Shown here: in pieces, positions 32,861-52,187 of the stretch
Numbering within the stretch: the stretch's first letter is position 1
How the letters are laid out: each line of letters opens with the position of its first letter
Source of the DNA: Methanobacteriota archaeon
GTDB taxonomy: Archaea; Thermoplasmatota; Thermoplasmata; UBA10834
NCBI GenBank assembly: GCA_020348345.1
Contig: CP070748.1
Location: forward strand, 1,629,682-1,693,681
DNA length: 64,000 bases
Reading direction: 5' to 3'
Made by a program: the position numbers and the translations under genes
Notes under the pieces: generated by a model
What the model saw: only the letters and a program-made list of their open reading frames with translations
The model's database searches: none
What the model was told of the DNA's origin: nothing

Positions 32861-33607
32861 TTATCTGCTTGCGAGGGATTCCAAGGCCGGAGTGACCTGT
32901 TCGATGCGAGGCACGTACGCATCCGCCACGTAACGCCCTCTGGCGGTTTCGAGCCCGACCTGGATCGCTGACATGCCTGCCACCTTCGCGCCGTCGATGT
33001 CGGCCCACGGATTGTCACCAACGTGAACCGCACGTCCAGGTTTGACGTCCAGCTCGGCCAACGCGACATCGAAGATCTTACGAGCCGGTTTCCTCGCCCT
33101 GACCTCGTTCGAGAATACTGCAACGTCGAATCTATCGAGAATATCCATGTCCCCGAGCATTGCTCTCAGAACCGATCCTGGCGTCTTGCCCGTGTTGGAT
33201 ATCAATCCCATCTTCCTTCCGCTCTCCTTGACGGCGACGAGCGTTGCCTTCGCTCCCGTGAGAAGCTTGGGCCTGTGCTGGAGCATGCTCTCTGAATAGG
33301 CCTTTTCGACATCAGCGAGCGTTGATGAGCCGATCCGTTTCAAGAGCCCGGGATCGAGTGAGTCCAGCAGGAAATGGACCTGCTCTCCGACGGAGATATC
33401 CTCTTCCCTGCTCCAGATGGCTTCGAGGCGGTCTCCCGTCCTCCGGTAGGCCGCCTCGAGCGTCTCTCGAGTAGGATTGAATCCAGAGCCATCGAGGATT
33501 CGCTGGATGGCATCGAGGCGCAGCTCCGCAACGACTCCAGCGCCTCCTGGCACCTCCTGGATCAGCGTGTCCCAGAGATCGAATGTCACAGCCTCTATCT
33601 GTGTCAT
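32861..33607 (-). CDS. HAD-superfamily hydrolase
   Basis: This 248-residue protein has the HAD motifs: I in TFDLWDTL (nucleophile Asp, though the usual second Asp of DxDxT is replaced in the DLWDT form), II in LISNTGKTPG, III Lys in EVRARKPARKIF, and IV in HVGDNPWADIDGAK. A helical cap lies between motifs I and II. It probably dephosphorylates a small metabolite. The substrate cannot be assigned from the sequence. Confidence 0.87.
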   Translation of the reverse strand: MTQIEAVTFDLWDTLIQEVPGGAGVVAELRLDAIQRILDGSGFNPTRETLEAAYRRTGDRLEAIWSREEDISVGEQVHFLLDSLDPGLLKRIGSSTLADVEKAYSESMLQHRPKLLTGAKATLVAVKESGRKMGLISNTGKTPGSVLRAMLGDMDILDRFDVAVFSNEVRARKPARKIFDVALAELDVKPGRAVHVGDNPWADIDGAKVAGMSAIQVGLETARGRYVADAYVPRIEQVTPALESLASR

Positions 33608-33694
33608 GTCAGCGCCTTCTCGAACAGCCGTACAGGTTATCTACTTGACTGTCGCCTGACTGCCGCATCGATGTCCAGCTTTTGGATGGAAAGC

Positions 33695-33703
33695 TATTAA
33701 ATA
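33695..33703 (+). promoter_or_regulatory. TATA box of the 5S rRNA gene
   Basis: TATTAAATA is centred at about 33699. A start of transcription about 26 bases downstream would fall at 33725, exactly where the extended helix I of the 5S transcript begins (33726). This supports independent transcription of the 5S gene. Confidence 0.6.
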
Positions 33704-33731
33704 GGGAATCGTTGTTAGACGCCTGAAGAGC

Positions 33732-33954
33732 GGTTTGACGGCCAAAGTGGCGGGGCCACACCTGGTCTCATCCCGAACCCAGAAGTTAAGCCCGCCCACG
33801 TTCTTTGCGGTACTGAGGTGCGCGAGCCCTCGGGAAGCTCAAGGTCCTTGTGACCTCGTGACCGCATCGGCTAGATGTCCTAGCCAAGTACCTTCGGGTA
33901 CAGGGTGAACCACATCGTTTGAACCCGGTGCGTGCGTGGAACGCTGTCAGCCAC
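33732..33954 (+). rRNA. rrf: 5S rRNA with a probable ~98-nt insertion
   Basis: The conserved 5S core is clear: loop A CCAAAG, helix II GUGGCGGG (33747-33754) pairing with CCCGCCCAC (33791-33799), loop C with AUCCCGAAC, loop B GAAGUUAAG, and the helix IV/loop E region GGUACUGAGGUGCGCGAG...CUCGGGAA. Helix V is CUUUG (33803-33807) with CAAGG (33840-33844). The expected helix I strand does not follow. Instead GCUGUCAGCC at 33943-33952 pairs with GGUUUGACGGC (33732-33742) with one bulged U, and AAGAG/CUCUU can extend the stem outward. Bases 33845-33942 are therefore an insertion. Without them the RNA would be about 125 nt, the normal length. No 16S or 23S gene is nearby. End positions are approximate. 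Confidence 0.88.
33845..33942 (+). other. Self-folding insertion domain of the 5S rRNA
   Basis: This stretch lies between the 3' strand of helix V and the 3' strand of helix I. It can form a closing stem, CGCAUCGG (33863-33870) with CCGGUGCG (33925-33932), extended outward by bases 33854-33860 with 33933-33939. That stem encloses two hairpins: GGCUA/UAGCC (33869-33885) and GUACC-UUCG-GGUAC (33888-33901). The fold is compact and leaves the standard 5S domains intact. Confidence 0.65.
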
Positions 33955-34010
33955 TCTTTCTGCATATTCTGGATAAACAGCGTACGGTACGTGGTACCTA
34001 CACGAAAGGG

Positions 34011-34039: not shown

Positions 34040-34918
34040 TTGGAGCTGGCCCCCTTGGCTCTCACGATTGAAGAGAAATGGATTCTGATCATCATACTGA
34101 TTGCGGTAATGACTCTGGTCGTCTTTTTCGAGGTCAGAATCATGCGCGGCAAGGCAAAGGAGGTCAGGAGAGCGAGCCAGCGCAGAGATGAGGCGCACAA
34201 CGCTCTATTGACGACCGACTCGGTGCTCGGCGTCGTCGCGAGGGAAGGAGCGGACGTAGACAGCGCCAGGACCATCGTGAACAGGGCAAGGGACGCCTAT
34301 TCGAGGAGGGAGTACGGGCGGACCATGGATCTGTGCGAAAGCGCCAGACTGGAACTCCGCAAATGCAAGCGACCGACCTATCTGCAGCCGGAGCCAGAAG
34401 CTGAGGCTTCGGACGATCTCGAACGCCTCGCCGAGGAGATTGTCAGGTCTGACGTCAGACCGAGCCACAGCGACACATACAAGGGTACGAAGCTGCCGGC
34501 TGACGAGGGTTCTGGCTACATGGGTGCCAAGTTCGAGGTGGGCGCTGCCAGGGAAGATCTGAAGCGTGCAGCTGAAGAAGGAAGGGACACGGCAGAGGCG
34601 GAAGAGACGCTCGCCGGCGCGGAGGCCGAGTTCGAAGGCGGGAACTACGCCAGAGCGCTCTCGCTCGCGATCAAGGCGAGGAAACGGCTCAGCGAGACCG
34701 CTGACTCAGACACCATTCAGCTTAGCGCCTCAGGAGTCAGAGAGGAAACTGAGGGCGAGGCGCTGAAGTGCACCTCCTGTAGGAGCATGATACTTCCTGA
34801 TGACGATTTCTGTGCCCAGTGCGGCGCTCCAGCGAAGTTGGAGCCGTGCCCGGAATGCGGCAGGGAACCGACGAAGACCGACAAATTCTGCAGGAAATGC
34901 GGCACGAAGCTGAGGTGA
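34040..34918 (+). CDS. Membrane-anchored protein with helical repeats and C-terminal zinc ribbons
   Basis: This 292-residue protein has one N-terminal membrane helix (WILIIILIAVMTLVVFFEV), then two helical TPR-like segments (SARTIVNRARDAYSRREYGRTMDLC and AEETLAGAEAEFEGGNYARALSLAIKA) separated by a charged, probably disordered linker. The last 50 residues hold two zinc-ribbon halves (CTSCRSMILPDDDFCAQCG and CPECGREPTKTDKFCRKCG). I do not recognise a defined function; membrane-tethered scaffolding is plausible. The TTG start is supported by the TATA box 26 bases upstream. Confidence 0.75.
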   Translation: MELAPLALTIEEKWILIIILIAVMTLVVFFEVRIMRGKAKEVRRASQRRDEAHNALLTTDSVLGVVAREGADVDSARTIVNRARDAYSRREYGRTMDLCESARLELRKCKRPTYLQPEPEAEASDDLERLAEEIVRSDVRPSHSDTYKGTKLPADEGSGYMGAKFEVGAAREDLKRAAEEGRDTAEAEETLAGAEAEFEGGNYARALSLAIKARKRLSETADSDTIQLSASGVREETEGEALKCTSCRSMILPDDDFCAQCGAPAKLEPCPECGREPTKTDKFCRKCGTKLR

Positions 34919-52074: not shown

Positions 52075-52187
52075 CCCGACTTAGCTCAGACTGGCTAGAG
52101 CGGCTGACTGTAGTGTGGAAATCGGTACGACCGATCTCAGTCGCTGAAATCAGCAGGTCCCCGGTTCAAATCCGGGAGTCGGGACCA
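52075..52187 (+). tRNA. tRNA-Tyr (GTA) with a 35-nt intron
   Basis: The acceptor stem CCCGACT (52075-52081) pairs with AGTCGGG (52177-52183). The D stem is GCTC/GAGC, and the anticodon stem is GCTGA (52103-52107) with TCAGC (52150-52154). The anticodon GTA is at 52110-52112. The T arm is CCCGG-TTCAAAT-CCGGG. The intron, 52114-52148, sits at the standard 37/38 position and contains the hairpin ATCGGT-ACG-ACCGAT. The terminal CCA is encoded (52185-52187), unlike in tRNA-Pro of this window. Confidence 0.95.
52114..52148 (+). other. Intron of tRNA-Tyr
   Basis: These 35 bases interrupt the anticodon loop between nucleotides 37 and 38, the canonical archaeal position. The internal 6-bp hairpin and the flanking pairing are consistent with a bulge-helix-bulge substrate for the splicing endonuclease. 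Confidence 0.85.

Follow-up and report, generated by a model that had tools for sequence, protein, structure and literature searches.

Does the 5S rRNA gene in the window (the whole 64,000 nt of DNA that were analysed) encode a 5S rRNA of ordinary length, or a molecule whose two ends meet only across a large expansion? An earlier note on this DNA had proposed that the gene is a true 5S rRNA gene, expanded by about 98 nt, in a Thermoplasmatota-like lineage probably outside the Halobacteria. Both points were borne out: the host belongs to the Thermoplasmata, and comparison with normal relatives gave an expansion of 97 nt. A recheck of the letters also confirmed sequence and coordinates as described there. 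As a whole, the data are very probably explained by an expanded 5S rRNA of about 221 nt, which retains an arm at the site known from Halococcus morrhuae, the arm being old and probably shared with haloarchaea.

The 5S locus and the closure of helix I

The host genome (1.7 Mb, single contig, 86.8% complete) contains one 5S gene, the expanded gene in the window. The window holds no further rRNA gene. The 5S gene stands alone and is flanked by a gene for a HAD-family hydrolase (32861-33607, minus strand) and a gene for a zinc-ribbon protein (34040-34918, plus strand). An Rfam search of the stretch at a permissive threshold returned 5S only. The match to RF00001 (cmscan) covered 33734-33856 and model positions 1-120 with 75.6 bits (cut-off 38), and the 5S core is highly conserved among relatives. 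In this match, however, a poor helix I was forced onto local sequence. The TATA box that the earlier note had put at 33695-33703 was recovered as a TATA-like box at about 33694-33704, which is also present in related loci. The gene comprises the following parts:

33694-33704 (+): TATA-like box of the stand-alone 5S gene (from the sequence; A/T-rich box, equal distance in relatives)
33726-33730 (+): outer helix I extension, 5′ half AAGAG, partner 33954-33958 (fold; sequence)
33732-33742 (+): helix I 5′ strand (GGTTTGACGGC), RNAalifold columns 4-14 (pairing with the distal strand in relatives)
33734-33836 (+): canonical 5S core with helices II-IV, loops B, C and E and the helix V 5′ strand (RF00001)
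33800-33804 (+): proximal part of the helix V 5′ strand, GUUCU, partner 33938-33942 beyond the insert (sequence; normal relatives)
33837-33937 (+): 101-nt interval that contains the expansion, flanked by GGGAA and GGAAC (comparison with normal relatives)
33938-33942 (+): proximal part of the helix V 3′ strand, GGAAC (sequence; comparison with normal relatives)
33943-33952 (+): helix I 3′ strand (GCTGTCAGCC), predicted true 3′-terminal region of the molecule (RNAalifold; pairing in relatives)
33954-33958 (+): outer helix I extension, 3′ half CTCTT (fold)

In each of the 25 relatives (9 families), all seven positions of the 7-nt helix I core paired with the distal strand, whereas the best match in the local region reached four to six of seven positions, and seven in none of them. 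According to this, the 5′ end indeed pairs with a strand about 98 nt further on, and the local strand after helix V lacks a proper helix I pairing, both as the earlier note had claimed. In the minimum-energy fold of 33720-33965 (z = −3.46; none of 200 shuffles folded as well) the 5′ strand likewise paired with the distal strand, and the proposed outer AAGAG/CUCUU stem was part of this fold. Furthermore, the distal strand pairs and covaries in related 5S loci. Helix I is closed by the two ends of the molecule only via the strand 97 nt further on.

Position and folding of the insert

The distance from GCGCGAGC to GTCA is 118 nt here versus 21 nt in normal relatives, which fixes the excess length at 97 nt; about 4 of the 101 nt between GGGAA and GGAAC are present in normal 5S. 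Normal relatives read GGGAAGC-CTGGAAC-GCTGTCAGCC, expanded genes GGGAAGC-(insert)-GTGGAAC-GCTGTCAGCC. Since GGAAC (33938-33942) pairs with GUUCU (33800-33804), the insert splits the 3′ strand of helix V, and it does not lie after helix V and before helix I, as had been assumed previously. Judged by sequence comparison, the insert site is archaeal position 104.1/105 (bacterial 108/109), as in the H. morrhuae insert for which this site was defined (PMC7812874, PMC7530397). The length of the insert is 97 nt here and about 95-113 nt in relatives, versus 108 nt in the Halococcus type. In family f48 (f1 to f60 are handles for families) the pre-insert sequence can also complete helix V (GUAAUCUUC/GAAGAUUAC; L231, L239 and other f48 loci), and these bases, which could pair on either side of the insert, suggest that the junction can shift.

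The insert is predicted to form a short hairpin (P1) and a long arm (P2-P3-P4), which together with the two helix V halves would make up a four-way junction. Its elements are:

33842-33856 (+): P1 hairpin, AGGUC-CUUGU-GACCU (RNAalifold pairs with two-sided changes)
33858-33937 (+): long arm P2-P3-P4 (match of covariance model R2 at L001:1625-1704, 63.6 bits; covariation)
33872-33873 (+): internal loop I, 5′ side (UA), A invariant (A7 columns 16-17, A 100%)
33880-33882 (+): internal loop II, 5′ side (CUA), A invariant (A7 columns 24-26, A26 100%)
33883-33906 (+): P4 with UUCG tetraloop (A7 columns 27-32 with 108-114; fold)
33907-33910 (+): internal loop II, 3′ side (GAAC) (A7 column 116, A 97%)
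33917-33924 (+): internal loop I, 3′ side (GUUUGAAC; consensus GYUNNAA) (A7 columns 126-133)

RNAalifold was applied to an independent MAFFT alignment of 25 genes and gave 61 consensus pairs, 34 of them with two-sided changes, including pairs in P1, P2, P3 and P4. In alignments fitted to the model (A5, A7), in which pair counts are for this reason biased toward its structure, changes on both sides were seen in 23 of 27 arm pairs; for 39 arms, 89.2% of the cells were paired (66.3% after shuffling), 260 cells had a two-sided change (84 after shuffling), and the covariation score was 0.669, compared to at most 0.113 with the partners slid. The effect is large, and the independent MAFFT alignment agrees with the covariation on the fitted one. 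Both internal loops are near-invariant while the stems vary, with the consensus YA / GYUNNAA for loop I (G 100%, U 97%, A 97% and A 100% on its 3′ side) and NA / NA for loop II.

In this genome P3 consists of 5 bp, and outer P2 contains mismatches. A pseudoknot was considered in which the loop of an apparent GGCTAG-CTAGCC hairpin would pair with the strand preceding TTTGAA; it was rejected, as other families form a nested P3 there. A reading of the internal loops as K-turns was also dropped, the tandem G-A pattern being absent.

Fate of the insert during maturation

The locus is predicted to encode an RNA of about 221 nt (33732-33952) with an intact 5S core, and the arm would stay in the mature rRNA. 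Other fates of the transcript have to be weighed against this. Introns are known from archaeal rRNA and tRNA, and an intron-bearing tRNA gene is present in the window itself; the insert could thus be an intron that is cut at a bulge-helix-bulge (BHB) by the archaeal splicing endonuclease, ligation restoring a normal 5S. However, no BHB was present at the insert boundaries. None was found by the BHB scan anywhere in the gene of this genome, in the f2, f8, f15 and f19 sequences and in three of four f9 sequences, and matches in the other sequences were located at scattered columns inside the insert or the core, none of them conserved at the boundaries. The partners of the boundary strands are helix V and P1 rather than one another, and covariation as well as invariant loop residues in two classes show the arm to be constrained. 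Splicing is therefore regarded as extremely improbable. Even less credit is given to a mature 5S that ends near 33856 with a poor helix I, the downstream part being an independent small RNA or a trailer. The 3′ end of the 75.6-bit cmscan match at 33856 would fit such a molecule, but full pairing is never reached by the local strand, whereas the distal strand pairs in every sequence and covaries, and the same annotation error was described for haloarchaeal expanded 5S genes (PMC7812874).

Removal of the arm after folding and without ligation would yield a two-piece 5S, like the intervening sequences in some bacterial 23S rRNAs, and the long stems are possible endonuclease targets. We consider this very improbable: the H. 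morrhuae insert was found in an intact 231-nt molecule, as recounted in PMC7812874 with reference to Luehrsen 1981, and the conserved internal loops suggest a kept function. Where genomes were screened for their complete set of 5S genes, no normal 5S was seen beside the expanded one (G576, in which the core is masked, was left out). As these genomes have no 5S type other than the expanded form, the latter is presumably retained in functioning ribosomes. For H. morrhuae, cryo-EM revealed a four-way junction, a flexible outward arm and a retained insert (PMC7530397). By analogy, the retained arm described here would project outward from the central protuberance and leave the uL5/uL18-binding core undisturbed.

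What looked like a second, normal 5S in G075 was a single expanded gene broken up by the ends of two contigs. The tRNA gene in the window (52075-52184, plus strand), probably a tRNA-Tyr(GUA) gene whose anticodon loop contains an intron of about 38 nt, was found by Rfam and missed by ARAGORN.

Occurrence in Thermoplasmatota and relation to haloarchaeal inserts

Within the class, 400 genomes were sampled and the arm was detected in 71 of them by covariance model R2, namely in families f1, f2, f7, f8, f9, f15, f19, f21, f23, f24 and f27. Family f3 is also expanded, as judged by alignment and a 20.3-bit match in its locus, and Ca. Saliniplasma carries the arm as well. In the phylum sample the arm occurred outside this class in f48 (19 genomes) and f60. 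These two families, which were absent from model building, gave matches of 35-50 bits in register and inside 5S genes; all inspected matches were located in 5S genes except for a second, 5′-truncated copy in G450. The total amounts to at least 14 families from two classes of Thermoplasmatota. A plasmid search with the insert as query gave no match, and among the matches listed by a contig pattern scan true ones were diluted by bacterial chance matches.

Normal 5S genes are present in f4, f5, f6, f10, f12-f14, f16-f18, f20, f25 and f26, among others, as well as in f28-f33, f35, f37, f49, f50, f56 and f57. Normal-length 5S of Thermoplasmatota (e.g. f4, f10, f20, f37, f49) share the core and the type of helix I 3′ strand with the expanded 5S, but they have no insert, and the helix I strand directly follows helix V. 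Relatives of this kind had been named in the earlier note as evidence that would speak against an expansion. They exist in other families, and nevertheless the claim stands, since those genes merely lack the insert and mark gain or loss. In an EF-2 tree the expanded state is patchy and requires 9 changes, at least 5 of them forced by well-supported branches; for example, f60 (expanded) and f37 (normal) are sister families, and f3 (expanded) clusters with f12 and f13 (both normal). According to these changes the arm was lost or exchanged several times, loss and transfer not being separable by a single gene tree such as that of EF-2. The arm would be old within Thermoplasmatota, with repeated loss or exchange.

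In G450 (f60; L236:2966-3048 and 430-512) the truncated copy is found about 2.5 kb downstream of the full one and still has the insert and the helix I 3′ strand. It resembles a pseudogene or a remnant of recombination, such as have been reported for some expanded 5S genes of bacteria. A second, 5′-truncated 5S of normal length was seen about 1.8 kb from the full gene in G420 (f37, L331). The single-contig genome G162 (f19) has two unlinked, slightly different expanded 5S genes (L241, L242), both with the arm. In G038 and G048 (f9; L269, L273) the EF-2 reading frames are about 1050 aa long and carry a large insertion, which may be an intein, toward the N-terminus.

A survey from 2021 listed no archaeal 5S expansions outside a few haloarchaeal genera of the Halobacteriales and concluded that prokaryotic 5S expansions are confined to taxa of subfamily rank; it also noted that archaeal expanded 5S genes are misannotated as shorter ones (PMC7812874). 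Our literature search, for which subscription journals and preprints were largely outside the scope, returned no report of a 5S expansion in Thermoplasmatota. A pattern search revealed inserts in 13 of 244 Halobacteria genomes. Like the expanded 5S studied here, the 5S of Halococcus morrhuae and Halalkalicoccus (108-nt insert) is expanded at the same site in the helix V 3′ strand by a similar length, has a short hairpin and a long arm at a four-way junction (a predicted one in the gene of the window), and is the sole 5S type in the cell. It differs in that it belongs to another phylum and to few genera as opposed to at least 14 families, its sequence is mostly diverged, and the terminal part, P4, is built differently.

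Model R1, built from Thermoplasmata arms alone, matched the Halococcus/Halalkalicoccus subtype (A) over all 82 positions (1-82) with 28.7-35.6 bits, while its best false matches in the same loci were near 15 bits. The second haloarchaeal subtype (B) gave only about 10 bits. With the halo-only model R3, Thermoplasmata inserts were among the top matches and in register (best 16.9 bits, E about 0.17 and above, E-values being rough due to a shortened calibration). A sequence-only HMM of the insert scored haloarchaeal inserts barely above shuffles, so that sequence alone does not prove homology. Folded in isolation, the Halococcus/Halalkalicoccus inserts show the same element order (P1, P2, loop I, P3, loop II, P4) together with a 2x8 loop CA/GUUACAAC; the residues that are invariant in loop I occur in them too. 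Of 40,000 shuffled sequences, 15 gave a 2x7-8 loop with a 6-bp helix after it and none gave the full topology, in a test that was chosen after seeing the structure.

The main rival to shared descent is convergence, with separate origins of the arm and the haloarchaeal insert at a permissive site. No archaeal insertion site other than 104.1/105 is known, and this site permits unhindered expansion (PMC7812874); the lineages belong to different phyla, and both the weak R3 match and the low score of subtype B count in favour of separate origins. The R1 scores well above the false matches, the common order of elements, the shared loop I residues and, though post hoc, the shuffling result argue against convergence, which we consider rather unlikely. 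Shared descent, vertical or by transfer, is judged probable; in view of the weak reciprocal model, homology is likely but unproven. The expansion had previously been taken as an independent example. With the same arm in at least 14 families and detection of the Halococcus/Halalkalicoccus insert by R1, common origin or transfer is likelier than an independent event.

Thermoanaerobacterium-type 5S rRNAs also carry a large, self-folding insert in the 5S core, but this belongs to another domain, is located at another site (positions 52-53, helix III bulge) and is shorter (41-46 nt). Asgard archaea have supersized rRNA expansion segments, which are not known to occur in 5S rRNA. With a same-site expansion in at least 14 families and two classes of another phylum, what looked like a haloarchaeal curiosity becomes a ribosomal element that is conserved and widespread. 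This raises the questions of what the arm binds, what caused its repeated loss or exchange, and whether it moved between phyla, and it is a warning that 5S annotation with the standard model truncates expanded genes.

The invariant loop adenines suggest a docking role, and the conserved internal loops are a probable, still putative, docking surface for a protein or RNA partner. We tentatively propose, as a possibility somewhat less likely than not, that Thermoplasmatota and Halobacteria share the arm as a single RNA module, ancient and partly mobile, which selection maintains because its two conserved loops dock a lineage-specific factor on the central protuberance. If true, two archaeal phyla carry an unrecognised ribosomal binding platform. 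Its consensus marks loop I as possibly T-loop-like (UNNAA).
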